DNA from: Cytophagaceae bacterium
GTDB lineage: Bacteria; Bacteroidota; Bacteroidia; Cytophagales; Spirosomataceae
Assembly (NCBI GenBank): GCA_027491195.1
Contig: JAIXWQ010000008.1
Location: 186,001 to 250,000 of the forward strand
Reading direction: 5' to 3'
Length of the DNA: 64,000 nt
Position 1 is the stretch's first letter. The number at the start of each line of letters is the position of its first letter. The position numbers and the translations under genes are program-made. Shown here piece by piece: positions 8,509 through 60,148 of the stretch. The notes under the pieces are model-generated. The model was not told where the DNA came from and did no database searches. It worked only from the letters and a program-made list of their open reading frames with translations.

Positions 8509-8640
8509 AGAGCACAAAGAATAAAGCATAAAGAATAAAGTTGGAATCTCCTTCGGAGATGAATTTATGAAAGATTTTTCTCGAATCCATCCGCGAAGCG
8601 GATTCAATCTTTATTCTTTATTCTTTGTGCTCTATTCTTT
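8509..8640. repeat. Heptad-arm palindromic element, copy A
   Basis: This is an intergenic inverted repeat of about 132 bases between kduD and the GH88 gene. The left arm (8509-8540) and right arm (8609-8640) are complementary and built of 7-base words such as AGAATAA, AGCATAA and AGCACAA; they differ by about one word. The 68-base spacer holds two small hairpins, one around ATCTCCTTCGGAGAT (8547-8561) and one around ATCCGCGAAGCGGAT (8589-8603), in opposite orientation. On the minus strand the words begin three bases after the kduD stop. Copies B and C elsewhere share the arms and the hairpin core. A terminator role for kduD is possible, but there is no U-tract. Confidence 0.85.
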
Positions 8641-8642
8641 CA

Positions 8643-9407
8643 TTATCGGCCCATCCAGCCGCCATCAACGGTCAGTATGGTTCCGTGTACATAGTTAGAG
8701 GCATCCGATGCTAAGAAAACCACTGGACCTTTAAAGTCTTCTGGTTCTCCCCAACGTCCTGCCGGAATTCGTCCTAAAATAGAAGCACTGCGCTCCTGAT
8801 CTTCGCGTAATGCCGTCGTATTATCTGTTGAAATATAACCTGGAGCAATTGCATTGACATTAACTCCCTTACCAGCCCACTCATTCGCTAAGGCCATCGT
8901 TAAGCGGGCAATTCCGCCCTTACTTGCTGCATAACCTGGCACGTTAATGCCGCCTTGGAAACTCAATAGAGAAGCAGTGAAAATGATTTTACCGGAACCC
9001 TGTGCTAACATAGCAGAACCTATCTCTCTACTTAGGATAAATTGAGACGAAAGATTCACCTCTAATACCTCATCCCAAAATTCATCCGAATGCTCTGCCG
9101 CTGGATTACGCAAAATGGTACCTGCATTATTGATTAAAATATCGATACGCGGAAAATCTGCTTTTACCTGTTTGATAAAGGCGTACAACGAATCACGGTT
9201 AGAGAAGTCTGCTTGGTAGGCTTTGAATTTTCGGCCCAGACCGACAACTGCTTTTTCAATGGCAGACCCTGAAAATTCTAACGAAGCCGAAACCCCAATA
9301 ATATCGGCACCAGCCTCCGCTAAGCCTAAAGCCATCGCCATCCCGATGCCTCTTTTGCAACCCGTTACGAGTGCTACTTTTCCTGTTAAATCAAATGCAT
9401 TTTTCAT
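8643..9407 (-). CDS. kduD: 2-deoxy-D-gluconate 3-dehydrogenase / KduD-type SDR
   Basis: KduD reduces 3-deoxy-D-glycero-2,5-hexodiulosonate to 2-keto-3-deoxygluconate, joining unsaturated-uronate breakdown to central metabolism. The protein is a classical 254-residue short-chain dehydrogenase. It has the NAD(H)-binding TGCKRGIG (about 15-22), NNAGTILR (about 93-100), the Tyr-x3-Lys catalytic pair in YAASKGG, and the KduD-like tail RIPAGRWGEPEDF and VDGGWMGR. The ATG lies one base after the GH105 stop (TAA-t-ATG), so the two genes form an operon. The next pathway genes (kduI, KDG kinase) are not in the window. Confidence 0.93.
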   Translation of the reverse strand: MKNAFDLTGKVALVTGCKRGIGMAMALGLAEAGADIIGVSASLEFSGSAIEKAVVGLGRKFKAYQADFSNRDSLYAFIKQVKADFPRIDILINNAGTILRNPAAEHSDEFWDEVLEVNLSSQFILSREIGSAMLAQGSGKIIFTASLLSFQGGINVPGYAASKGGIARLTMALANEWAGKGVNVNAIAPGYISTDNTTALREDQERSASILGRIPAGRWGEPEDFKGPVVFLASDASNYVHGTILTVDGGWMGR

Positions 9408-13685: not shown

Positions 13686-13809
13686 AGAGCATAAAGAATA
13701 AAGCACAAAGAATAAAGTCCATAGGGAATTAGTGCACAGGAAACAGTTCAGAATTCATCCCCGCAGGGGATTCCTACATTATTCTTTATGCTTTGTGCTT
13801 TATTCTTTA
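13686..13809. repeat. Heptad-arm palindromic element, copy B
   Basis: This inverted repeat lies between the divergent PQQ-dehydrogenase and DUF4440 genes. The left arm (13686-13717) and right arm (13779-13809) are complementary and consist of AGCATAA, AGAATAA and AGCACAA words. The 61-base spacer contains the hairpin CATCCCCGCAGGGGATTC (13756-13773), nearly identical to the one in copy C and similar to those in copy A. Unlike the other copies it is not at a gene 3' end but upstream of both neighbours. Confidence 0.85.
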
Positions 13810-13825
13810 TTAATATATTTACAAT

Positions 13826-14251
13826 ATGAAAACACTCCTCTACTGCCTTCTCTTCTTCCCCACTCTCCTATTCGCTCAAACAAATAAAGACGAATCCGAC
13901 ATCAAATCTGTCCTGAATACTCAGATTACCTTGTGGAATGCAGGTGATGTGAAAGGTTTCATGGAATACTATGAAAAATCACCTAACCTAAAATTCATCG
14001 GAAAGTCAGGTATCGTATCTGGATGGGAAGCCACATTAGCGCGTTATTTAAAATCCTATCCAAACAGAGAAACGATGGGAACACTGGATTTTGACATTCA
14101 AGAAATCGATGTAACAGAGGGAAAAACGGCCTGGGTATTAGGCAAATGGCATTTAACTAGACCAACGGTCGGTGATGCCGGCGGATATTTTACGTTGCTG
14201 ATGAAAAAGGTGAACGGGAAGTGGCTGGTTGTGAGGGATCATACATCGTAG
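13826..14251 (+). CDS. Exported DUF4440/SnoaL-like protein
   Basis: This is a small (141-residue) protein of the NTF2/SnoaL-like fold (DUF4440 type), with a signal peptide MKTLLYCLLFFPTLLFAQ. The pattern IKSVLNTQITLWNAGDVKGF near residue 26, then YYEKSPNLKFIG, and the C-terminal GKWLVVRDHTS are typical. Proteins of this fold bind small hydrophobic ligands or act as simple lyases and isomerases, but no activity can be assigned here. It is transcribed away from the PQQ-dehydrogenase gene, and its last codons form part of the inverted repeat at 14244-14321. Confidence 0.85.
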   Translation: MKTLLYCLLFFPTLLFAQTNKDESDIKSVLNTQITLWNAGDVKGFMEYYEKSPNLKFIGKSGIVSGWEATLARYLKSYPNRETMGTLDFDIQEIDVTEGKTAWVLGKWHLTRPTVGDAGGYFTLLMKKVNGKWLVVRDHTS

Positions 14252-14321
14252 ATTTTAGATATCTGTTACAAAAATGGCCTACGTCATATTTTTCGAAACA
14301 GATATCTAAAATCTAACGATG
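14244..14321. repeat. Inverted repeat overlapping the DUF4440 gene end
   Basis: The left arm (14244-14267) and right arm (14297-14321) match over 24 bases apart from one inserted T in the right arm, with a 29-base spacer. The left arm begins in the last codons of the upstream gene and includes its TAG. The arm reads as 7-base words (AGATTTT, AGATATC). No T-run follows, so it is not a standard terminator, though it could stabilise the mRNA end. Confidence 0.8.
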
Positions 14322-14369: not shown

Positions 14370-14446
14370 TTGCGAGCTAACTTGGAGGTATTTCAAGAAA
14401 ATATTTCGCAGGACATTTTCGGAAATACCTCCAAGTTAGCTCGCAA
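14370..14446. repeat. Perfect 24-base inverted repeat with shared core
   Basis: Arms at 14370-14393 and 14423-14446 are perfectly complementary (24 bases) around a 29-base spacer. The spacer contains AAGAAAATATTTCGCA, also present in the spacer of heptad element copy C. It lies 49 bases after the previous inverted repeat, with the same arm and spacer size, and just beyond the stop of the arsC-like gene. It may end that transcript. Confidence 0.85.
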
Positions 14447-24268: not shown

Positions 24269-26143
24269 TTATTTTTTCCATTTTTCTCCAAAAATCGACT
24301 TAAATGTCATCTCTGTGGCCTTTATCTTCGTATTATTTTTATGCCAAGCAAAGTCTCCCCCATCCCGGTGACTTTCTGAATAATACACGCGATGACCCCA
24401 ATTGAGCACTCGATCACCCGATTGGTAGATAGGCGCATCGGCCATATTTTTATCAAAAGAACAGTTGAACAAATAAAACTGCGCTTCTCGGTGGTAACGA
24501 CCTAATTTATATCCCGGATCACCTACAAAACGGCAATTCTTCAAAACCGTTTTCGCCTGCTCATCACCCGATCCATCATGCCAAATAGCCGCGTTCATAT
24601 TATGGCAAACGAATGTGCAATTTTCTGCCAAAGCATAGCCCCTAGGACAATATAAATCCACTCCTCCTTCGATTAAACAGTCATTCAAATAATACATCCC
24701 CGTATTCACATCCCAAGGACTCATCGTATCCCCACCTCCAGAACGCATGGTGCAATGCTCAAAAGACAAACGAGTCGCGCCCGGCATCGTCCGAACCGCG
24801 AATTGGTGACCATCCACACGCACGATCTTTTCGCCCTCTTTCTCTCCTTTCTCGCGTGGTAAGGCATATTTTTGAACCGTAGTTGTCGTCTCCTTTCCGG
24901 CCCCATTTAGGCAAGGAATGGTCACATCACTTTTGGCATTAAAACCGTAGTCATTCATAATCGTGAGATTTGAAAACGATAAATCATGCCCCTTTACATT
25001 CAACACACCTGCACCGTAATCATCTGGATTTGAACAACGCCAAATATCCCGCGCAATCGTCTCCTGAATTACCACACCTGCCCTACTTTCCCCCACAAAA
25101 CGTAAATGATGCTTCAAGGAATCGACAAAAATCTTCTCCCGATAAATACCATTCTTGATATAAATTTCTTGACCCGGACGCGCCACATCTACGGCAGATT
25201 GTATCGTTTTGAATTCAGCTCCCACGACTAAACGCTTCTTCATAAAACGGTCCATCCTATCTACCAGCTGGGCAAAGTAATGATTCATTAGCACGAAGGT
25301 ATGGTGCGATTTCTCGAAGGTATAGTATTCTGTATGTATGCCAAACGTCGCCATTTTTCGCATAAAATCATCGCGACCTGCGTGCATTCGATCATCTCCT
25401 GAATTTAAAAACAAGACGGGAGGATCCCCTTTTGTGACATGGCTTAAGGCTGAAGCCTCTTTCCAAATCGCTTCTCCCACTACTTTGTTGTATCCAAAAT
25501 AATGAGTGGCCGCTGAAGTACGTTTGCTGTCATCCCCTTCCCCTGACTCGGGATGGATGAAGGCTAAAATACCGTCCACATCGATAACACCGGCTAGCTT
25601 AATTCCTTTCCCGTAGGTGTTTTCGTCTTGAACCGAGCCTAAAAGCGCAGCCATTTGGCCCCCTGCTGAATATCCTCCTACATAGATTTCTCCTACATTT
25701 TTACGTTTAGCCACCCATTGCAAAGCAGCCTGGGCATCGAGCATGGCTGCTGGATATAAAGCTTCGGTAGACAAACGGTATTCCACTAGAAATACGCGAT
25801 AACCGCGATCTGCGAGTGCTTTTGCTAATGGAATGTGTTGAGAACGATGGCCGGTACGCCAACCTCCCCCGTGGAAAAAAACCAGCGTAGGTAGCTTGCG
25901 AGAGGAAATGGAATATTCATCCACCATCAATTTTCTCGCTCCTATCACTTTGTACACTGAACTTTGAACTTTGCTCTTTGAACTTTGATACTCAGCAAGG
26001 CGAATTGTAGGATCTTGCTTCGATACCATTCTCAAGGCGGAGTAATTCGTGAAGGAGGTATCTGGTTTCCCCGTAATACCCGATTTGTCTTGGGCTTGAA
26101 GGGACCAGCAACTGAACAGAAATAAAAGAAGAAGTTTGCGCAT
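24269..26143 (-). CDS. Exported fusion: alpha/beta-hydrolase esterase + pectinesterase-like beta-helix
   Basis: The protein has two enzymatic-looking halves after the signal peptide MRKLLLLFLFSCWSLQAQ (start at 26143; the frame is open to 26179). Residues about 60-300 form an acetylesterase-like alpha/beta hydrolase with HGGGWRTG (oxyanion hole), GGYSAGGQMA (nucleophile Ser), NSGDDRMH and KSHHTF (Asp and His). Residues about 310-624 form a pectin methylesterase-like beta-helix: FKTIQSAVDVARPGQEIYIK at its start and CLIEGGVDLYCPRGYALAENC where pectinesterases have GTVDFIFG. The Asp in GGVD could be the catalytic one. It may remove acetyl and methyl esters from pectin. A heptad repeat (25958-25992) lies in frame within the linker before the esterase domain. 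Confidence 0.82.
   Translation of the reverse strand: MRKLLLLFLFSCWSLQAQDKSGITGKPDTSFTNYSALRMVSKQDPTIRLAEYQSSKSKVQSSVYKVIGARKLMVDEYSISSRKLPTLVFFHGGGWRTGHRSQHIPLAKALADRGYRVFLVEYRLSTEALYPAAMLDAQAALQWVAKRKNVGEIYVGGYSAGGQMAALLGSVQDENTYGKGIKLAGVIDVDGILAFIHPESGEGDDSKRTSAATHYFGYNKVVGEAIWKEASALSHVTKGDPPVLFLNSGDDRMHAGRDDFMRKMATFGIHTEYYTFEKSHHTFVLMNHYFAQLVDRMDRFMKKRLVVGAEFKTIQSAVDVARPGQEIYIKNGIYREKIFVDSLKHHLRFVGESRAGVVIQETIARDIWRCSNPDDYGAGVLNVKGHDLSFSNLTIMNDYGFNAKSDVTIPCLNGAGKETTTTVQKYALPREKGEKEGEKIVRVDGHQFAVRTMPGATRLSFEHCTMRSGGGDTMSPWDVNTGMYYLNDCLIEGGVDLYCPRGYALAENCTFVCHNMNAAIWHDGSGDEQAKTVLKNCRFVGDPGYKLGRYHREAQFYLFNCSFDKNMADAPIYQSGDRVLNWGHRVYYSESHRDGGDFAWHKNNTKIKATEMTFKSIFGEKWKK
25958..25992. repeat. 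In-frame heptad array inside the esterase gene
   Basis: Five 7-base units lie in a row: TGAACTT, TGAACTT, TGCTCTT, TGAACTT, TGATACT (plus-strand reading). They encode the Ser/Lys/Gln/Val-rich stretch YQSSKSKVQSSVYK near residues 50-63 of the fusion protein. They share the 7-base period of the intergenic elements but not their word. Confidence 0.8.
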
Positions 26144-26211
26144 AATTTGTAAAGGGGAAGATTCGATATTTCTAATCATTCTTCCTAATTTACGACTCTA
26201 AATCGATTAAC

Positions 26212-27282
26212 ATGAAAAATATACGCGTGCTCGTGGTGGGTTGCGGAAACATGGGAGCCTCTCATGCGAAAGCCTACCAGAATGTAGCCGGATTTGAAAT
26301 CTGTGGACTCGTTTCCCCAGGAAATAGTAAGGAAGTATTGAATGAAGCATTAGGTGGGGGCCAAAAGCTCTACAGCGACTACTACACCGCCCTTGCCGAC
26401 TCTAAACCCGATGCGGTTTGCATCTCCACCTACCCAGATACACACGAAGCCTATTCCATTGTTGCATTAGAAGCTGGGTGCCACGTATTTTTAGAGAAAC
26501 CCATCGCTGACTCCTTAGCCGGCGCGATTCGCGTCGCAGAGGCGGTGCAGAAAAGTGGCAAGAAGCTAGTGGTGGGCTATATTTTACGCCACCATCCCTC
26601 TTGGATCAAGTTCATCGAAATCGCGAAGACGATGGGGAAACCCCTCGTGATGCGTATGAATCTCAACCAGCAATCCCACGGTTACATGTGGGATGTACAC
26701 CGTAATTTGATGAAATCCCTAAGTCCTATCGTGGATTGCGGCGTTCATTATATTGATGTGATGTGCCAAATGACTCGCTCTAAACCCCTTCGCGTTTCAG
26801 CGATCGGTGCTAGAATGACGGAAGATATTCCGACCGGAAATTATAATTACGGTCAGCTTCAAATCCATTTTGAAGATGGATCCGTAGGCTGGTACGAAGC
26901 GGGCTGGGGACCAATGATCTCACAGAACGCCTATTTTGTCAAAGATGTTTTTGGGCCTAAAGGTTCCGTTTCCATCGTCGCCAAAAACGCCGGTGGTGAA
27001 GGTAAATCCGATGATGTGGAATCCCACACCAAGACCGAATCCCTTCGTGTCCATCACGCAGACATTGATTCCAATAACGAATTTACAAAAGACGACGAAT
27101 GGGTCAATCTTACCGATGAACCTGACCACCAAGGCCTTTGCGATCGCGAGCAGGCCTATTTCCTGCGTGCCATTCAAGACAACGTGGATCTAACGGATCA
27201 CGTAGAGGATGCAGTAAACAGCCTTCGCATCGCCTTTGCGTGTGATGAGTCGGTGCGGACGGGGGAGATGGTGAGGCTATAG
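26212..27282 (+). CDS. Gfo/Idh/MocA-family oxidoreductase
   Basis: This is a 356-residue NAD(P)-dependent oxidoreductase of the Gfo/Idh/MocA family. The Rossmann motif GCGNMGASHAKAYQ is at about residues 10-23, the conserved EKPIADSLAGA at about 95-105 carries the catalytic Lys, and VDCGVHYIDVM near 178-188 carries the catalytic His. It has no signal peptide. It is transcribed away from the esterase fusion with a 68-base gap. Members oxidise or reduce sugars and inositols; the substrate here is not identified, though the neighbourhood suggests a uronate or other plant-derived sugar. Its TAG stop is the first triplet of a heptad inverted repeat. Confidence 0.9.
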   Translation: MKNIRVLVVGCGNMGASHAKAYQNVAGFEICGLVSPGNSKEVLNEALGGGQKLYSDYYTALADSKPDAVCISTYPDTHEAYSIVALEAGCHVFLEKPIADSLAGAIRVAEAVQKSGKKLVVGYILRHHPSWIKFIEIAKTMGKPLVMRMNLNQQSHGYMWDVHRNLMKSLSPIVDCGVHYIDVMCQMTRSKPLRVSAIGARMTEDIPTGNYNYGQLQIHFEDGSVGWYEAGWGPMISQNAYFVKDVFGPKGSVSIVAKNAGGEGKSDDVESHTKTESLRVHHADIDSNNEFTKDDEWVNLTDEPDHQGLCDREQAYFLRAIQDNVDLTDHVEDAVNSLRIAFACDESVRTGEMVRL

Positions 27283-27378
27283 TCGCTAGTCGCTAGTCGA
27301 GAGTCGGGAATCTGAAGTTTGAGAGTCACTAATTTTAGACTCATTCACTTTTGACTAGCGACTAGTGACTAGCGACTA
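27280..27378. repeat. Heptad-arm inverted repeat at the Gfo/Idh gene end
   Basis: The left arm (27280-27305) begins with the stop codon of the upstream gene and repeats AGTCGCT. The right arm (27353-27378) is its complement with three mismatches over 26 bases. The spacer is 47 bases. The right arm directly meets the next hairpin (27378-27430). Confidence 0.85.
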
Positions 27379-27430
27379 TTTAAACTAACAAAAAAGGTCT
27401 CTTACCGAGACCTTTTTTGTTAGTTTAAAT
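27378..27430. terminator. Bidirectional terminator with 24-base perfect stem
   Basis: Arms at 27378-27401 and 27407-27430 are perfectly complementary, with a five-base loop (TTACC) and AAAAAAGGTCTC/GAGACCTTTTTT at the centre, giving U-tracts in both directions. The right arm includes the last codons and stop of the S9 peptidase gene (stop 27420-27422). Confidence 0.88.
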
Positions 27431-29453
27431 ACTTGGCTAGCCAGCCCTGTATCTCCGCATAATGGAACTTCGAATTATCTGGATTTAGAATCCAGTGATT
27501 CTCACCCGGGAAGACGATCAGCTTGGATGGAATCTGCAAGCGCTGGTGAATGCTCCAGTTTTCCAAGGTATTGTTAATCGGCACGCGGTAATCATTTTCA
27601 CCTACCGTTAAGAGCATAGGTGTTTTGAAATTTGCCGCGAAGCGCATTGGATTTTGTTCCTTCCAAGTCTTAGTAGGTACCCAAGGAGCTCCTCCATTCA
27701 TTAATTCTCTGCCCCAAATCACATCCGACGTTCCCCACTGTGCCTCAGAGTTCACTAAACCGGCATGGGAAATCAGACATTTGTAGTGAGACGTAGTTGC
27801 TTGCATCCAGTTCGCTAAGTGACCACCGTAGGACGCTCCACCAGCCGCTTGTTTGCTCCCATCGATGTAAGAGAAGCGTTTGATAGCATCAGCAGCGGCT
27901 TCTTGAATTTCTTGACCTGGACCTTTGAAGGGATCAAATTGAATATCTTGTGCGAATTTCTCGCCATAGCCCACAGATCCGGTATAATCTGTCATCACGA
28001 TCACATAGCCTGCTGAACCTAAAATATAGGGATTCCAACGGTAGCCGAATACATCTTTGAACGAGCTAGCTGGACCTCCGTGCATTAAAACGAACAAAGG
28101 GTATTTCTTCGAAGGATCGAATCCAGTCGGTTTCAAGACCACCGATCGGATGTTTTTTCCACGAGATGATTTAGTCCAAATCACCTCCGGCTTCTGTAAA
28201 TCCAATCCAGCTAAAACGGCGTCATTGGCTTTAGAAATGGCCTTCATGGTACCATTAGAAGACACCCAAACTTCAGGTGGAGAAGCAATGGATTGGTAAT
28301 AATAGGCAAAAACGGATGACTTTGCAGAAAGACTTAATCCAGTAAAGGATCCTGTTTCAGCTCCTAAAACAGGTTTTACTGATCCATCGGTAATGGAAAT
28401 TTCAACGATGCGATCAACACCCTGATCTTCAATACTTGCGTAAATAGAGGAACCGGCCATTTCCATATCATTGATGGGACGGTCGAGGGAGGTGGCTAAT
28501 TCTTTTTTAGCGCTATGAGTCGAGGCATCAAATCGATACAAGCGATTTAAGTAGTAGATTTTAGTACCGATAGCGGTACCGGATGCGATTAAATACTTAC
28601 CGTCTTCGGTATATTCCGCAGATGAGTAATCCGTTTCATCATTGACTAAAACGGACTCTTTTCCACCAGAAATACTAACGGAATAGATATTGGATTTCGC
28701 CGATTGAAAGGCTGTTGTGTTGTATTCCGTGGTTGCGGTAAAAACAACAGACTTTCCATCTGGACTAAAATTATAAGAACCTAAACGGAATCCAGAGGAT
28801 TGAACCAGCGAAATATCCTTCATCAAATTCACCGGTTGAGCGCCTGCTTTTAAATCCATCGCAAAAATGTGACCTTGTTTTTCATCTAACCAAGCATCCC
28901 AATAGCGAACGGGGAAGGAATGGTAGACTCTGGCTTTAGTCTTGATTTTCTTCTTTTCATCTGCTAATTTCTTACTGGCAGAATCAGTGAAAGCCGTAGG
29001 TAAAACACGACTAGAGAAAATGATTTTAGATCCGTCTGGGGAGAATTTGACATCGCTCACGCCAGTTGATAAAGTGGTTAAGCGTTGAGCTTCTCCCCCA
29101 GCTAGAGGAAGAACGTATAATTGAGGGGCGTCGTCGCCGTCTCTTTTGGCAATAAAATAAATCTTATCCGAAGCAGCAGACCACTGGTAATTGTCCTCGC
29201 CTCCTTTTGAATTCGTTAGCTTACGGGGTTCAGAAGAGCCATCTACAGCGGCAATCCAAAGATCGGAGGTTTGCTCGTCTAGATTATAAGAAGTCTCCAC
29301 TCGGGAATAGATGACGAAGCGGCCATCGGGTGAAATTTTAGGAGAACCCACTTTCTTTAATTTGATCATGATCTCATGGGTCATGGGCTTTTGGGCAGTT
29401 ACAGAGAAGCCTAAAACCAAAAAGCAGGTCAAGAATGTTAACAATTTTTTCAT
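27420..29453 (-). CDS. Exported S9-family peptidase (acylaminoacyl-peptidase type)
   Basis: This is a 677-residue exported prolyl-oligopeptidase-family serine peptidase with signal peptide MKKLLTFLTCFLVLGFSVTAQ. The N-terminal part is a beta-propeller of WD40-like/PD40 blades (KISPDGRFVIYSR, VKFSPDGSKIIFSS, YNFSPDGKSVVFT). The C-terminal alpha/beta-hydrolase domain has FVLMHGGPASSF, nucleophile Ser in GGASYGGHLANWM, Asp in VGENDYRVPI and His in PGENHWI. It likely removes dipeptides or acylated residues from peptides in the periplasm. It is divergent from the M13 peptidase, with a perfect palindrome between. Confidence 0.92.
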   Translation of the reverse strand: MKKLLTFLTCFLVLGFSVTAQKPMTHEIMIKLKKVGSPKISPDGRFVIYSRVETSYNLDEQTSDLWIAAVDGSSEPRKLTNSKGGEDNYQWSAASDKIYFIAKRDGDDAPQLYVLPLAGGEAQRLTTLSTGVSDVKFSPDGSKIIFSSRVLPTAFTDSASKKLADEKKKIKTKARVYHSFPVRYWDAWLDEKQGHIFAMDLKAGAQPVNLMKDISLVQSSGFRLGSYNFSPDGKSVVFTATTEYNTTAFQSAKSNIYSVSISGGKESVLVNDETDYSSAEYTEDGKYLIASGTAIGTKIYYLNRLYRFDASTHSAKKELATSLDRPINDMEMAGSSIYASIEDQGVDRIVEISITDGSVKPVLGAETGSFTGLSLSAKSSVFAYYYQSIASPPEVWVSSNGTMKAISKANDAVLAGLDLQKPEVIWTKSSRGKNIRSVVLKPTGFDPSKKYPLFVLMHGGPASSFKDVFGYRWNPYILGSAGYVIVMTDYTGSVGYGEKFAQDIQFDPFKGPGQEIQEAAADAIKRFSYIDGSKQAAGGASYGGHLANWMQATTSHYKCLISHAGLVNSEAQWGTSDVIWGRELMNGGAPWVPTKTWKEQNPMRFAANFKTPMLLTVGENDYRVPINNTLENWSIHQRLQIPSKLIVFPGENHWILNPDNSKFHYAEIQGWLAKYLN

Positions 29454-29510: not shown

Positions 29511-31541
29511 ATGAAAAATAAATACTACCAATTACTTATGGCAGGTTCGCTCCTTTTCGGTGGCAGTCTGTATGCCCAGGAAAAACCGGGTAAATTTATT
29601 GATCGCGACAACATGAATTTCAGCGTGAAAGCGGGAGACGATTTCGTGGAATACTCGAATGGTCCTTGGGTTAGAAGAAATCCAATACCCGCTAAAGAAA
29701 CACGCTGGGGTGCTTTCAATCAATTACGTGATTTCAATATCAATGCGATTAAAACAATCTTAGATGAGACCAAAGGAACGAAAGCTCCAGCAGGTTCTCC
29801 AGAAAGAAGAGTGGCTGATTTCTATGCGGCGGCTATGGACAGTTTGGCCATCGAAAAATTAGGCTACACTCCTATTCAAGCTGATTTACAACACATCGCA
29901 GGATTAAAATTCAAGTCGCAAGTAGTAACTGAAATTGCTCGCTTGCGTTCTTCAGGTATTGCCTCCCCTTTATTCGGATTCTACATCGGTCAAGACCGCA
30001 AGAATGTGGAGAAAATGGTACCTCAATTAGGACAAGGCGGAACATCCCTTCCTGATCGTGACTATTATTTAAAGAATGATGCACGTAGTTTGAAAATCCA
30101 AGAGGCATTCAAGAAATACGTAGCGACATTATTTACTTTAACAGGAACACCAGAGGCGCAAGCTAAGACAAATGCGGAGACGGTTTTCCAATTAGAGAAG
30201 AAATTAGCTGAGGCTCAAATGGCGCGTGTTGAAATGCGTGATCCTTATAAAACGTATAATAAGTTTGCCTTTGCTGAGTTCAACCAAAAGACTCCAGCAT
30301 TTAACTGGGCTTTGACTTTCCAAGATTTTGGAACAACGGCTCCTGATTCTATCTTAGTAGGTGCTCCTAAATTCTTTGAGGCAGCTAATAAAATGCTAAT
30401 TGAGACGCCGGTAGAGACTTGGAAGACCTATTTAGCTTGGAATGTATTACGTAGCAGTGCAGGATATTTGAGCTCGCCTTTCGTGAAAGCAAGTTTCGCT
30501 TATTCACAAGTATTATCAGGCCAAAAAGTTCAAGCACCAAGATGGCAACGCATGTCTTCTATGACAGACGGAACTTTAGGCGAATTATTAGGTCAATTGT
30601 ATGTAGCTAAATATTTCAAGCCAGAAGCGAAAGCGAGAATGGTAGAATTAGTAGCTAACCTTCGCAAAGCGTTTGCCGTACGCATCAACAAATTAGATTG
30701 GATGAGCGCGGAAACGAAAGAGAAGGCTTTGGCAAAATTAAATGCCTTCACGCCTAAGATCGGGTATCCTGATAAATGGAAGAACTACGATGGCTTAGAA
30801 ATCTCAGCTACAGAATACTATGGCAACATCCGTCGCGCTGGTGCCTGGGGTTTCCAAGAAAACTTAGCTCAATTAGGCAAACCAGTAGACAGAAGCAAAT
30901 GGGGAATGACGCCACCAACGGTGAACGCGTATTACAGCCCAGTAATGAACGAAATCGTTTTCCCAGCAGGGATCTTGCAATTCCCTTTCTTCGCTGCTGA
31001 CGCAGACGACGCGATCAACTATGGTGGAATCGGAGCCGTTATCGGTCACGAAATGTCACACGGATTCGACGATTCAGGTAGCCAATACGACAAAGATGGA
31101 ACGTTACGCAACTGGTGGACAAAAGACGATTTAGCGAAATTCAAGGCTAGAACGGAGCTTTTGGGTAAGCAATTTGATGCCTATACAGTTCAAGACACCA
31201 TCCACGTGAACGGTAAATTGACGATGGGCGAAAACATCGGTGACTTAGGTGGTTTGAACATGGCTTACGAGGCATTCAAAATGACGAAGCAAGGTAAGTC
31301 TACCAAGAAAATTGACGGATTTACTCCAGATCAACGTTTCTTCTTAGCATGGGCACAAGTTTGGAGAGGTTCATCTCTTCCAGAAACAGAAGCTCAACAA
31401 GTATTAACAGATCCTCACTCACCTGGTCAATACCGTACCATCGGTGCTCCGGTAAACATGGATGCGTGGTACAAGGCATTTGATGTGAAACCGGGAGATA
31501 AGTTGTACAAGAAGCCGGAAGATCGGATTAAGATTTGGTAA
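29511..31541 (+). CDS. Exported M13-family zinc metallopeptidase (PepO/neprilysin-like)
   Basis: This is a 676-residue neprilysin-family endopeptidase for short peptides, with a signal peptide that includes YYQLLMAGSLLFGGSLYAQ. The zinc site is the HExxH of IGHEMSHGFDDSG (about residue 519) and the third ligand Glu in GENIGDLGGL. NAYYSPVMNEIVFPAGILQ is the classical substrate-binding stretch (NAYY), and the C-terminal Trp (RIKIW) is also typical. It is divergently transcribed from one S9 peptidase and convergent with another, making a peptide-degradation cluster. Confidence 0.95.
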   Translation: MKNKYYQLLMAGSLLFGGSLYAQEKPGKFIDRDNMNFSVKAGDDFVEYSNGPWVRRNPIPAKETRWGAFNQLRDFNINAIKTILDETKGTKAPAGSPERRVADFYAAAMDSLAIEKLGYTPIQADLQHIAGLKFKSQVVTEIARLRSSGIASPLFGFYIGQDRKNVEKMVPQLGQGGTSLPDRDYYLKNDARSLKIQEAFKKYVATLFTLTGTPEAQAKTNAETVFQLEKKLAEAQMARVEMRDPYKTYNKFAFAEFNQKTPAFNWALTFQDFGTTAPDSILVGAPKFFEAANKMLIETPVETWKTYLAWNVLRSSAGYLSSPFVKASFAYSQVLSGQKVQAPRWQRMSSMTDGTLGELLGQLYVAKYFKPEAKARMVELVANLRKAFAVRINKLDWMSAETKEKALAKLNAFTPKIGYPDKWKNYDGLEISATEYYGNIRRAGAWGFQENLAQLGKPVDRSKWGMTPPTVNAYYSPVMNEIVFPAGILQFPFFAADADDAINYGGIGAVIGHEMSHGFDDSGSQYDKDGTLRNWWTKDDLAKFKARTELLGKQFDAYTVQDTIHVNGKLTMGENIGDLGGLNMAYEAFKMTKQGKSTKKIDGFTPDQRFFLAWAQVWRGSSLPETEAQQVLTDPHSPGQYRTIGAPVNMDAWYKAFDVKPGDKLYKKPEDRIKIW

Positions 31542-31577
31542 TCTCTAGAGTAGAGATAATAGAGTAGAGAGTAGAGA
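31539..31577. repeat. Heptad array at the M13 peptidase gene end
   Basis: Directly after the TAA stop the words AGAGTAG, AGATAAT, AGAGTAG, AGAGTAG and AGATTCT follow in phase. The ends (AATCTCTA and TAGAGATT) are inverted, so a weak hairpin can form. It shares the 7-base period of the other elements. A strong terminator follows at 31589. Confidence 0.75.
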
Positions 31578-56507: not shown

Positions 56508-57388
56508 TGGGTGTTCAATTAGCCATTCATGGGAAATCATTTTCGGCAGAAACGAAGCCGTTAATGGAAAAAATGTGGGCGGACATTTGTGCCAAAAACT
56601 GCCAACCCATCCTGTCTGATTTTTTCAAAAATCATTTATTGGAGCACGGTTTTTCGGTCGCTGAAGTTCCCAGCTATTCTACTGAAAAAGGACTAGAATC
56701 TGCGGACATGGCCTGGAGTATCGGTGGCGATGGTACCTTATTGGAAACCTTAACTCAAATAGGCCCAAGAGAAATCCCTATTTTAGGTATCAATACGGGG
56801 CGTTTGGGCTTTTTAGCCACGCTTTCGCCACCCGAAATAAGCTCTGCCTTAGACACCGTTTTACAAGGTAATTACCGAATCGAAAACAGAAGCCTTGTGG
56901 CTGTAGAATCTGAAATGGACTTTTTCGATGGCAAAGGGTTCGGTTTAAATGAAGTAGGTATTATGAAAACAGATACCTCTTCCATGATTACTATCAAAGC
57001 ATTTGTGGACGGAAATTATTTGAATTCGTATTGGGCTGATGGCCTTATCGTTTCCACCGCAACGGGCTCTACCGGTTATTCCCTAGCCGTAGGTGGACCT
57101 TTGGTGATACCTAGCTCCGATATATTCATCATTGCCCCCATGAGCCCGCACAATTTAAACGTGCGTCCACTCCTTGTTTCCAGTTCTGCCGTATTAACAT
57201 TTGAGGTGAGTTCTCGAAGCAAAAATTTCCTTATCTCTTTAGACTCCCGTTCCAAAGTAATCGACAGCCACTTCAAAATCGAAGTCAAAAAGGCCCCTTT
57301 TTCAGCGAAACTAATCAAGATTCCCGGGGATGATTTCCTACAGACGTTGCGGAGTAAATTGAATTGGGGGTTAGATGTCAGAAATTAA
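56507..57388 (+). CDS. nadK: NAD kinase
   Basis: NAD kinase makes NADP from NAD and ATP. The nucleotide motif GGDGT is at residues 73-77, the following GINTGRLGFLATLSP and the later NEVGI are typical, and the ADGLIVSTATGSTGYSLAVGG block (about 176-196) is the family signature. It has 293 residues, the normal length. It is coupled to the CBS gene by a TAATG overlap. The last codons and stop form one side of the hairpin at 57371-57426. Confidence 0.95.
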   Translation: MGVQLAIHGKSFSAETKPLMEKMWADICAKNCQPILSDFFKNHLLEHGFSVAEVPSYSTEKGLESADMAWSIGGDGTLLETLTQIGPREIPILGINTGRLGFLATLSPPEISSALDTVLQGNYRIENRSLVAVESEMDFFDGKGFGLNEVGIMKTDTSSMITIKAFVDGNYLNSYWADGLIVSTATGSTGYSLAVGGPLVIPSSDIFIIAPMSPHNLNVRPLLVSSSAVLTFEVSSRSKNFLISLDSRSKVIDSHFKIEVKKAPFSAKLIKIPGDDFLQTLRSKLNWGLDVRN

Positions 57389-57426
57389 AAAAGAGCTTAG
57401 GCTCTTTTTTAATTTCTGACATCTAA
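57371..57426. terminator. Terminator with 26-base perfect stem overlapping the nadK end
   Basis: Arms at 57371-57396 and 57401-57426 are perfectly complementary with a four-base loop (TTAG). The core AAAAAAGAGC / GCTCTTTTTT gives T-runs in both directions. The left arm contains the last five nadK codons and the TAA. Confidence 0.9.
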
Positions 57427-57520
57427 AGAATAAAGCAAAAAGAATAAAGAAAATATTTCGCAAAATCATCCCCGCAGGGGATTCCAACTTTATTCTTTAT
57501 ACTTTGTGCTCTATTCTTTA
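57425..57520. repeat. Heptad-arm palindromic element, copy C
   Basis: This lies between convergent nadK and mutS. The left arm (57425-57449) and right arm (from 57488) consist of AGAATAA/AGCAAAA/AGCACAA/AGTATAA words in inverse orientation; the right arm includes the mutS stop codon (57518-57520). The 38-base spacer contains ATCCCCGCAGGGGATTC (57468-57484) as in copy B, and AAGAAAATATTTCGCA (57447-57462) as in the repeat at 14370. Confidence 0.85.
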
Positions 57521-60148
57521 AAGTAGTCTTTTAAGCTCATTAAGCTTGAGTAGCGCCTCAATCGGCGACAAGGAATTCACATCCAGCTCCTTTAGTTGAT
57601 CCTCGATTTTCTGTAATCCCTCTGGAATTTCAGCACCGAAAAGAGACATCTGGTAATTTGCCTTCGGCATCTCTTTTAGCTTATCGATGTTGTCTTCCAA
57701 GACATGATCTTTTTCTAAATTCTGCAAGATTTCGTGGGCACGTAAAACTAAAGAAGTCGGCATTCCGGCTAATTGAGCAACATGAATACCAAAACTATGT
57801 GCACTTCCACCCGGCAATAATTTGCGCAAGAAGATGATTTTGTTACCCACTTCTTTGACGGAAACGTGGAAGTTTTGGATGCGCGGGAAGTCCTGCGTTA
57901 ATTCGTTTAATTCGTGGTAGTGGGTGGCAAATAAGGTTTTGGCCTTATGAACTGGATGATTATGCAAATGTTCTGCAATCGCCCAGGCCATCGAAACGCC
58001 GTCATATGTCGATGTTCCACGACCGATTTCATCCAATAAAACGAGCGAACGAGACGATAAATTATTCAGGATTGCCGCTGTTTCGGTCATCTCGACCATG
58101 AAGGTAGACTCGCCTTTCGATAAGTTATCGGAGGCACCCACACGCGTAAACACTTTGTCCACTAAACCCAAGTTAGCGGATTCAGCAGGCACATAAGAAC
58201 CCATTTGGGCGAGTAAAACGATGAGTGCCGTTTGACGCAACAAGGCTGATTTACCGGCCATATTGGGACCTGTAATCATCATAATTTGCTGCGTTTTATC
58301 GTCAAGATAGATGTCATTAGGCACATAATTCTCCCCCGCTGGCAATTGCTTTTCGATGACCGGGTGACGACCACCTTTGATATCGATGATTTCCGTTTCG
58401 TTTAAAGCGGGACGAACATAATTGTTTTTCTTCGCCACCGTAGCAAAGGAGGCTAAGACGTCCAAAGTTGCAATGCCAAGCGCATTCTGCTGAATCTGAG
58501 TGATATAGCTCAAAGCCGATTGCACTAATTCTTGGAATAAGCGGAATTCAATCACTGAGATTTTATCTTCTGCACTAAGAATCTTTTCTTCGTACACCTT
58601 CAATTCTTCCGTGATATAACGCTCTGCATTCACCAATGTCTGCTTGCGAATCCATTCGGGTGGCACGCGATCTTTGTGGGCATTGGTTACTTCTAAATAA
58701 TAGCCAAATACCTTGTTATACGAAACCTTCAGCGAGGTAATTCCTGTGCGTTCAATTTCACGTTTTTGGATATCCGCTAAAAAGTTCTTGCCCGAACTCG
58801 AAAGTCCGTGCAATTCGTCTAATTCCGCTAAATACCCACTCTTTATCATGCCGCCTTGGTGCATGAGCACCGGCGGGTCTTCGCGCAAAATCGTATCGAT
58901 TTTTTCCACTAATTCCGTGCAAGAATCTAAACTGGCCGCTAGACCTGAGAGACTTGGCGATGTGGATGCTGATAAAAGCGCTTTAATCTCCGGAATCTGC
59001 TGCAAAGCCTTTTTCAAGGCATTCAATTCGCGGGGATTAATGCGGCCGGCGGCGACTTTGGAAATCATCCGCTCCACATCGCCGATCGGTTTTAATAAGT
59101 CCGAAACCTGATCTAATAAACTCGAAGAGGCTAATAAACCCGCGACACCCTCTTGTCTTTGCTCAATGGTTTTCAACTCTTTTAAAGGCAATACTAACCA
59201 TTTACGAAGCAAACGACCACCCATCGCAGTCAAAGTCTGATCGATGAGCGAAATCAAAGGAACTCCCCCCTCTTGCGTGGGATGAATTAATTCCAAATTG
59301 CGAATCGTAAAACGATCTAACCAGACATATTTATCCTCTTCGATACGCTGAATGGACGAAATATGGCCGATGGCGCGGTGTTCGGTTTCCGCTAAATAAT
59401 GTAAAATAACACCGGCAGAAATGATGCCTAGCGGACTATTTTCGATACCAAATCCTTTCAGATTTTTGGTCTTAAAATGCTGTGTTAAAAGTGGATACGT
59501 GAATTCGTGAGTAAAAATCCACTCCTCCATGGTGAAGCTGTGAAATTGCTCACCGAAGGCATCTATGAAGGCGTTTCTATGCTTTTTGGGATACAAAATC
59601 TCGGCCGGCAAGAAACCTTGGACTAACTTCTGAATATAGGCTAATGGGCCTTGAGAGCACATAAACTCGCCTGTAGATATATCTAAAAGGGCAATTCCAT
59701 AGGTAGAGGACTTCTCATCTAAAGAAATCGCAGCCACATAATTATTGCGCTTATTATCTAATACTTGGTCGTTAAACGACACACCAGGTGTCACTAATTC
59801 AGTCACCCCACGCTTCACAATCCCCTTCACGGTCGCAGGGTCCTCTAATTGATCACAAATCGCCACACGTTCACCCGCGCGAACTAATTTAGGTAAGTAG
59901 GTATCCAATGAATGGTGTGGAAAACCGGCTAATTCGGCATCCGCGTTGCCGTTATTACGACGCGTCAGAACAATGCCCAAAATTTTCGAAGCTTTCACCG
60001 CATCTTGGCCAAAGGTCTCATAAAAATCCCCCACCCGGAACAATAAAATAGCCCCAGGGTATTTCGCCTTGATTTGATTAAACTGCCTTGAAAGTGGAGT
60101 TTCCCCTTTTTTCAATGGCTCCTCTCCGTTGTCTGCTTTCCGTGCCAA
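57518..60148 (-). CDS. mutS: DNA mismatch repair protein MutS
   Basis: MutS recognises base mismatches and recruits MutL using ATP. The mismatch-binding domain has AILLFRVGDFYETFG (about residues 33-47, containing the intercalating Phe-x-Glu). The ATPase domain carries the Walker A MMITGPNMAGKSALLRQ, then STFMVEMTETAAIL, the Walker B LVLLDEIGRGTSTYDG and LFATHYHEL. No ATG exists near the expected N-terminus. I choose a TTG at 60148, reading MARKADNGEEPLKKGETPL, which gives 876 residues and leaves a 73-base gap to the divergent GMC gene. The frame could extend to a TTG at 60220, but that stretch resembles no MutS and would fill the promoter. Confidence 0.94.
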   Translation of the reverse strand: MARKADNGEEPLKKGETPLSRQFNQIKAKYPGAILLFRVGDFYETFGQDAVKASKILGIVLTRRNNGNADAELAGFPHHSLDTYLPKLVRAGERVAICDQLEDPATVKGIVKRGVTELVTPGVSFNDQVLDNKRNNYVAAISLDEKSSTYGIALLDISTGEFMCSQGPLAYIQKLVQGFLPAEILYPKKHRNAFIDAFGEQFHSFTMEEWIFTHEFTYPLLTQHFKTKNLKGFGIENSPLGIISAGVILHYLAETEHRAIGHISSIQRIEEDKYVWLDRFTIRNLELIHPTQEGGVPLISLIDQTLTAMGGRLLRKWLVLPLKELKTIEQRQEGVAGLLASSSLLDQVSDLLKPIGDVERMISKVAAGRINPRELNALKKALQQIPEIKALLSASTSPSLSGLAASLDSCTELVEKIDTILREDPPVLMHQGGMIKSGYLAELDELHGLSSSGKNFLADIQKREIERTGITSLKVSYNKVFGYYLEVTNAHKDRVPPEWIRKQTLVNAERYITEELKVYEEKILSAEDKISVIEFRLFQELVQSALSYITQIQQNALGIATLDVLASFATVAKKNNYVRPALNETEIIDIKGGRHPVIEKQLPAGENYVPNDIYLDDKTQQIMMITGPNMAGKSALLRQTALIVLLAQMGSYVPAESANLGLVDKVFTRVGASDNLSKGESTFMVEMTETAAILNNLSSRSLVLLDEIGRGTSTYDGVSMAWAIAEHLHNHPVHKAKTLFATHYHELNELTQDFPRIQNFHVSVKEVGNKIIFLRKLLPGGSAHSFGIHVAQLAGMPTSLVLRAHEILQNLEKDHVLEDNIDKLKEMPKANYQMSLFGAEIPEGLQKIEDQLKELDVNSLSPIEALLKLNELKRLL

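Follow-up and report, generated by a model that had tools for sequence, protein, structure and literature searches.

Seven-base hairpin repeats in a Cytophagaceae genome and their probable link to cassettes carrying PF05635 genes

The window analyzed here, a stretch of 64,000 nucleotides, covers positions 186001 to 250000 of contig C6 in the assembly of a Cytophagaceae bacterium (2.49 Mb, 14 contigs, 98% complete). Arrays of tandem 7-base words lie dispersed along it, either as the two inverted arms of a hairpin or on one side only, as given below (z, RNA-fold z of the hairpin).

8509..8540, plus strand: left arm of a TAAAGAA-family solo hairpin, reading TAGAGCA CAAAGAA TAAAGCA TAAAGAA TAAAG, with five NARAG cores; z -8.8
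8541..8607, no strand: loop, with GGAATC and the small palindromes TCTCCTTCGGAGA and ATCCGCGAAGCGGAT, shared with other TAAAGAA-family members
8608..8640, minus strand: right arm, with the words in reverse complement; its end is 2 bases away from the stop codon (8643) of a minus-strand SDR gene (8643-9407)
13686..13717, plus strand: left arm of a TAAAGAA-family solo hairpin flanked by divergent genes; z -7.9
13779..13811, minus strand: right arm of the 13686 hairpin
25947..25988, minus strand: one-sided CAAAGTT-word array, in frame near the N-terminus of the minus-strand ORF 24269-26179
27280..27306, plus strand: left arm with the word TAGTCGC, its first TAG being the stop codon of ORF 26212-27282; z -10.1
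27353..27378, minus strand: right arm of the TAGTCGC hairpin
31546..31577, plus strand: one-sided TAGAGAG-word array between ORF 29511-31541, whose TAA stop lies 4 bases before it, and a terminator-like stem
57424..57451, plus strand: left arm of a TAAAGAA-family solo hairpin between the convergent genes nadK and mutS; z -5.9 (at 57425)
57488..57520, minus strand: right arm of the nadK-mutS hairpin, overlapping the mutS stop codon

A sequence-only reading had claimed tandem 7-base units at six places of the window, and they are present at all six. Its further description, that these units mostly form long hairpin arms and usually begin at or close to a stop codon, held in part. Hairpins are formed at 8509, 13686, 27280 and 57425, and none of 200 shuffles folded as well as these four, whereas the arrays at 25947-25988 and 31546-31577 are one-sided. 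Stop codons adjoin or overlap the arrays at 27280, 31546, 57520 and 8640, but not those at 13686 and 25947-25988. Two perfect palindromes, of 26 bp (57371-57396 / 57401-57426) and 25 bp (27377-27401 / 27407-27431), have stems that leave a terminator-like core in the direction of the neighboring gene end or reach into it; they have the look of templated inverted duplications formed at gene ends. Near-adjacent perfect or near-perfect inverted repeats with 26- and 25-bp arms, non-heptameric, were also seen at 14249-14315 and 14370-14446.

In the contiguous stretch C6:1-450000, 31 lag-7 self-match runs with a score of at least 12 were found, compared with none at lags 5, 6, 8, 9, 10, 11 and 13; the mean over three first-order Markov controls was 0 for lag 7 and no more than 0.3 for any other lag, so that chance is excluded for the window arrays. 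With a stricter cut over lags 4-24, the signals at 14 and 21 were harmonics of 7, and no other lag had more than one run. The sequence-only reading would have failed if period 7 were no commoner than other periods, and over these 450 kb of C6 it clearly is commoner. The TAAAGAA pattern, allowing up to 3 mismatches, matched the genome 183 times (overlapping matches counted), and its reversed control 0 times. Further words in the same 450 kb, often mixed, were TAGAGAG, CAGTAGT, AAATGGT, TAGTCGC and CAAAGTT, and the far arm of two-armed arrays consisted of reverse-complement words (both judged by eye). According to simple ORF calls, 35 runs in the 450 kb fell into convergent gaps (14), tandem gaps (16), a divergent gap (1) and ORFs (4); convergent gaps were thus favored, as they make up 2% of the bases.

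Elsewhere on the same contig, an array pair at C6:70795-70827 and 71299-71331 surrounds a 130-codon ORF whose product resembles the S23 four-helix bundle. PF05635 is the family of the 23S rRNA intervening-sequence protein (S23/IVP), a four-helix bundle, with a curated cut-off of 33.8 bits; a profile search of the window's own genome gave four genes at 78-115 bits, none of them inside the 64-kb window. Inverted repeat arrays enclose all four genes, and three of the four are framed by heptamers: the arms are TAGTCGC at L072, the array of a TAGTC hairpin at L073, AAATGGT at L074 and a TAAAGAA hairpin on each side at L075. Two words of the window, TAAAGAA and TAGTCGC, are therefore cassette words of the same genome, and a third, CAAAGTT, flanks PF05635 genes in the genus relatives G019, G030 and G023. 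A PF05635 home for TAGAGAG was sought and rejected, as this word was found within 500 bp of none of 165 PF05635 genes. The L072 protein has matches in the structures PDB 2gsc and 2rld, each of which consists of five chains of one sequence. An insertion into rRNA was likewise rejected, with no Rfam match in 20 tested loci (of 162) or in the window. At C6:102420-102750 (L037), multi-word heptamer arrays were seen around a tRNA-like gene (by eye), followed by a decayed partial copy.

Heptamer arrays are associated with PF05635 genes in the order of the window's genome, in genomes of the cyanobacterial phylum and in the class to which a Parabeggiatoa genome belongs. By a strict test (a heptamer run with a score of at least 10 within 400 bp), 165 PF05635 genes of four samples had arrays on both sides in 75 cases, on one side in 38 and on neither in 52. 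Counted by side, a period-7 array was present within 400 bp on 188/330, versus 17/330 at 540-1000 bp. The survey of the order covered 59 genomes (the own genome, 36 of its genus and 22 of the order), 43 of which carried PF05635 genes, with 121 matches in all. Of these matches, 74 were sampled, namely the best match of most genomes together with lower-ranked ones, with many others passed over, including most of those on short contigs; runs lay on both sides of 32 genes, on one side of 22 and on neither side of 20, compared with both sides of 1 and one side of 14 among 99 control ORFs of the same loci. On the 148 sides, period 7 was found 86 times, period 8 six times and period 15 twelve times, with 75 for the harmonic 14 and 0-3 for the rest. 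When read individually, the 20 loci negative in the test mostly held inverted arrays of 8-mers or of the 15-mer AGTCCGAAGGGAAAG, TAGTC hairpins of composite build, or arrays that were short and degenerate.

The three further samples were composed of best-scoring PF05635 loci, chosen with arrays disregarded. For one of them, 27 genomes were picked from at least 80 loci holding (TAACTGA)4, and 26 of the 27 contained PF05635; its 31 genes had arrays on both sides (14), one side (4) or neither (13), with period 7 on 32 and period 8 on 6 of 62 sides. In the cross-section of a phylum, that of a Nostocales genome, PF05635 was present in 74/146 genomes, a smaller proportion than in the 27 picked genomes, and in 0/14 control genomes; of the 30 genes sampled, 11 had arrays on both sides, 4 on one and 15 on neither, and 26 of the 60 sides showed period 7 and 16 showed period 8. 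The class of a Parabeggiatoa genome (G067) had 76/369 positive genomes, Parabeggiatoa itself being without the gene, and the corresponding figures for 30 genes were 18, 8 and 4, with period 7 on 44 of 60 sides and other periods on 0-1, except for the harmonic 14. Eight-base words were seen to frame PF05635 genes at L080, L116 and L144, as well as at L370, L373, L376 and L384 of the cyanobacterial phylum, and genes framed in this way group together in certain regions of the protein tree. In a separate observation, PF05635 matched contig C1 of genome G554 weakly at eleven places; ten of these matches, mostly several kb apart, were near-equal in score, and copies lying in repeated rRNA or another multicopy locus may account for them.

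The sequence-only reading had likened the arrays to the STRRs of cyanobacteria, which are heptanucleotide repeats. This comparison proved apt, because the known TAACTGA heptamer forms inverted arms around a gene of the same family in the Nostocales locus L258. Among the matches listed, L258 is the only one of 80 TAACTGA loci with a PF05635 gene, and hence most TAACTGA arrays are solo. In chosen stretches, three genus genomes lacking PF05635 showed 0 heptamer runs in 200 kb, whereas five that carry it showed 7 in 200 kb, two of the five having none. An absolute rule that genomes devoid of PF05635 are devoid of heptamers was ruled out by short GGTAATA arrays in gene-less genus genomes.

The two arms of a locus carry equal words. 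In 24 of 35 two-armed loci of the order, the left word was identical to the reverse complement of the right one, and in the other 11 it differed at one base; between loci of different genomes, the corresponding rates were 3.5% and 6.1%. Word and period also track the phylogeny of the PF05635 proteins. In the first three samples, with pairs having homologous flanks left out and at most one mismatch allowed after rotation, a word was common to 35/44 non-syntenic pairs at 60% protein identity or above, to 26/81 at 50-60%, to 71/544 at 40-50% and to 306/2,969 (10%) below 40%. At 50% identity or above, 61/125 pairs shared a word, against 16.8 expected and 0/500 shuffles as high, the pairs not being independent of one another. 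The period label changed 32 times on a tree of 135 proteins, which has few columns and many weak forks, compared with a shuffled mean of 46.1 (0/200 as low); the distinction of 7 from 8 alone required 10 changes. These data indicate that the word, and more loosely the period, belongs to the protein lineage. The 5' arm was richer in G than in C in 62/75 cases (opposite in 8, equal in 5), and the 3' arm richer in C than in G in 58/69 (opposite in 9, equal in 2). A YARWNNN rule for all words, noticed by eye in words of the own genome, was broken by GGGAATA, AGCGGGC and GCCGGTG.

The TAAAGAA family was followed through its solo elements. Among 90 of its arms, taken from stretches partly chosen for holding the family, 43 had five cores and 27 had four, whereas other arms comprised 3 to about 20 or more units. 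Arm likeness was 0.903 within elements and 0.903 between them, with 218/401 shuffles as high; correction of the arms against each other in solo hairpins was therefore rejected for this family. The solo family occurs in 11/38 genus genomes, own included, with 2 to 114 matches at up to 2 mismatches, and a protein at least 59% like that of the TAAAGAA-armed L075 is found in 7 of these 11 and in 0 of the 27 others. Three genomes with an 84-100% match to L075 hold 114, 60 and 40 TAAAGAA matches, the 84% one being G023, with an internal stop, and G021 has 44 matches with a protein of 62%; four of the 11 lack a close L075-like gene. The 11 genomes are probably one subclade, so that kinship confounds this test of co-occurrence.

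At orthologous sites, cassettes, solo arrays and array-free alleles alternate. The gap between engB and hemE, which are divergent and thus do not place the site at gene ends, was of cassette size (615-896 bp, leaving little room for a second gene) in 15 of 30 genus loci; the others had mostly solo arrays, chiefly GGTAATA, and two were array-free alleles of 132 bp. No target duplication could be defined between array-free and solo alleles at this site. Eleven same-facing cassettes there belonged to three protein clades, 53-58% identical to one another, with arms of TAGTCGC (four members 81-88% alike, L088 60-61%), AGTCCGAAGG (83-91%) and CAGTAGT/CAGTTGT (68-94%), despite an identity of 90-91% in hemE among eight near relatives. 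Both cassette orientations occur at this one site: the gene was reversed in 5/16 cassettes examined (a second copy in G008 left out), and L090 was 88-89% identical to the oppositely placed L086 and L087. One inverted loop was found in addition, that of the left hairpin at the L075 site, where G030 and G023 are 49% identical in the same orientation and 78% when one is reversed.

The nadK-mutS site, which holds a solo hairpin in the window, has a GGTAATA-armed PF05635 cassette instead in four genus relatives (4/30 loci). TAGAGAG hairpins occur there in two loci, and among the others are AGTCCGAAGG, CAAAGTT and unrelated hairpins. Seven loci (L184, L187, L188, L191-L193 and L202) showed yet another hairpin in this gap, GTAGAGACGCGA...TCGCGTCTCTA; similar palindromes occur in cyanobacteria. 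Related genomes differ in array copy number by whole units, and a number of PF05635 genes contain stops, including one in G023 (L397) that has kept its arms.

We consider it probable, at roughly 0.62, that the window hairpins are solo arms of selfish cassettes linked to PF05635, whose complete form would hold a small PF05635 gene in the loop between two inverted arrays, usually of a 7-nt word that the protein may recognize. The PF05635 protein would bind its own word array, either as hairpin RNA or as single-stranded DNA. An oligomeric ring could space identical binding sites so that the period is fixed and the word varies with the protein clade, since a ring with identical sites sets the length of the step and leaves the word free to evolve. 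TRAP, with its 5-nt steps, is comparable in this respect. Of the nearest solved relatives, 2gsc and 2rld, the one from X. campestris was described as a toroidal homopentamer (PMC4990558). The five-core mode of the TAAAGAA arms fits a pentameric ring and does not prove it; five-unit arms were not kept as proof, being suggestive in the TAAAGAA family only. Such recognition might allow cassettes, and solo arrays of the same word, to maintain themselves and multiply selfishly wherever a hairpin is tolerated, presumably with the help of a mobilizing enzyme; we know of no recombinase for PF05635 cassettes, our enzyme searches having covered Y1_Tnp and RVT_1. The main points against the cassette reading are that 52/165 genes had no heptamer run by the strict test, that TAGAGAG has no gene beside it, that GGTAATA arrays persist in gene-less genomes, that common descent affects the comparisons within the genus, that no recombinase is known, and that the arms of a solo element are no more alike than those of different elements.

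From different words with one period, the sequence-only reading had suggested a shared mechanism, and such words do have something in common; as candidate mechanisms it had named slippage and a reverse-transcription process, together with RAYT-type transposases to search for. Slippage may account for the whole-unit changes in copy number between relatives, and heptamers are described as the most abundant class of intergenic tandem repeats in many prokaryotes (PMC6344855; PMC4679880, citing Mrazek 2007). However, an explanation by ordinary simple-sequence repeats, in which a polymerase footprint favors 7 nt and the PF05635 gene is a bystander, is quite unlikely in our judgment: slippage yields direct repeats rather than paired inverted arrays of one word around one gene family, and it accounts neither for the coding partner and the match of word to protein, nor for the grouping of 8- and 15-nt periods on the protein tree, nor for the absence of enrichment at periods neighboring 7. 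It is unlikely, too, that hairpins selected by the host at gene ends, as bidirectional terminators or 3'-end stabilizers, merely served as neutral landing sites for PF05635 genes through a shared tolerance of intergenic places. The crowding of runs in convergent gaps speaks for such hairpins, as do the terminator-like stems often seen by eye in the loops of solo hairpins, which suggest that hosts may use hairpins at gene ends; a terminator scan of window positions 57300-57600 found none. But arrays on both sides of control ORFs were exceptional (1/99), the genes that border the engB-hemE site are divergent, and each protein clade has its matching word; the data also speak against unrelated words being as frequent next to cassettes as matching ones.

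The coupling of word and protein, the arrays directly adjoining the gene and the exchange of alleles as a unit would also suit an RNA-protein control module laid out like a type III toxin-antitoxin system, in which repeat RNA would sequester or regulate the PF05635 protein, solo arrays would be decoys or regulated 3' ends, and spread would be by ordinary recombination. We regard this as improbable, because the inverted arms lie on both sides instead of in one upstream array, and genes carrying stops, one of them with arms kept, argue against strong addiction. An origin as REP/RAYT-like elements that a Y1 (TnpA_REP) transposase moves in trans, or from reverse-transcribed copies, is hardly credible here, although the hairpins are dispersed, similar in length and furnished with inner palindromes. 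Y1_Tnp gave no match in the 98%-complete genome, with a model that was positive in 5/14 control genomes, and the sole RVT_1 match, on contig C4, was a polyprotein that also has RT_RNaseH domains; both origins were thus rejected for the own genome, where they would require an enzyme overlooked in the absent 2%. This long polyprotein (L031, around 3957-4445 of C4) is Ty3/gypsy-like by look, and contig C4 is probably eukaryotic contamination.

Beyond the window, the cassette reading may extend to bacterial heptamer repeats at large, TAACTGA included: with somewhat less than even confidence, we propose that they are footprints of a single selfish class based on PF05635 rings, the geometry of the ring setting the period at 7 nt (8 nt in some clades), the word serving as a clade-specific, barcode-like label, and solo arrays having lost the gene or never had it. 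The link between arrays and cassettes offers a testable lead on why seven-base repeats abound in bacteria, and it merges the heptamer puzzle and the puzzle of S23/IVP function into one question, namely, whether a ring protein reads its own word. If so, a recognition code between protein and DNA or RNA with a fixed step and swappable words would be at hand, as well as a class of mobile elements shaping gene ends and promoters in several phyla.

Several known systems share features with these elements. Dispersed palindromic intergenic units are also typical of REP/BIME sequences with RAYT, which differ in that the window elements keep a constant 7-nt phase and their genome lacks a Y1 transposase. 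MITEs likewise have many solo copies against few gene-bearing ones; unlike them, ends of the window type are tandem arrays of variable words, with no target duplication established and no known transposase. Avd, a protein of diversity-generating retroelements, is related to the S23 fold, being a ring-forming four-helix bundle with a nucleic-acid partner; however, no bacterial reverse transcriptase and no set of reverse transcriptase with template and variable repeats was found in the own genome, where the only RVT_1 match is the RT-RNase H polyprotein.

Heptanucleotide repeats (TAACTGA, GGGAATC, GGGGA(C/T)T) resemble the window arrays in having tandem 7-nt words, mostly intergenic, mixed and sporadic, and in C6:1-450000 period 7 is in excess over other periods, as it is in such repeats. 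TAACTGA repeats were reported from Beggiatoaceae, cyanobacteria and Bacteroidetes, together with mixed heptamers in Bacteroidetes (MacGregor 2015, PMC4679880), where the slippage conjecture of Mrazek 2007 is also given. GGGAATC of Xanthomonas and GGGGA(C/T)T of Nostoc are mentioned in PMC4692102, according to which no detailed literature is available, and heptamers were described as the commonest tandem repeats of intergenic regions, without a clear clue to function (PMC6344855). In the accessible text of these sources, they are mainly direct repeats of unknown cause with no PF05635 partner named, and in the open-access literature, as far as its accessible text extends, we found no link between PF05635 and heptamers; single solo arrays fit this picture of direct arrays, whereas the inverted pairs and the PF05635 association depart from it. 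The intervening sequences of 23S rRNA, as described for Coxiella, are hairpins with an S23-type ORF in the loop and are regarded as selfish, the S23/IVP protein being, in the passages of that paper on it, without known function (PMC4990558). The cassettes likewise carry a PF05635-type ORF within a hairpin, which the window's own hairpins lack. An intervening sequence, however, replaces the loop of an rRNA hairpin, whereas the cassettes are intergenic, lie between protein genes at engB-hemE and nadK-mutS, and have arms of heptamer words as well as solo forms.
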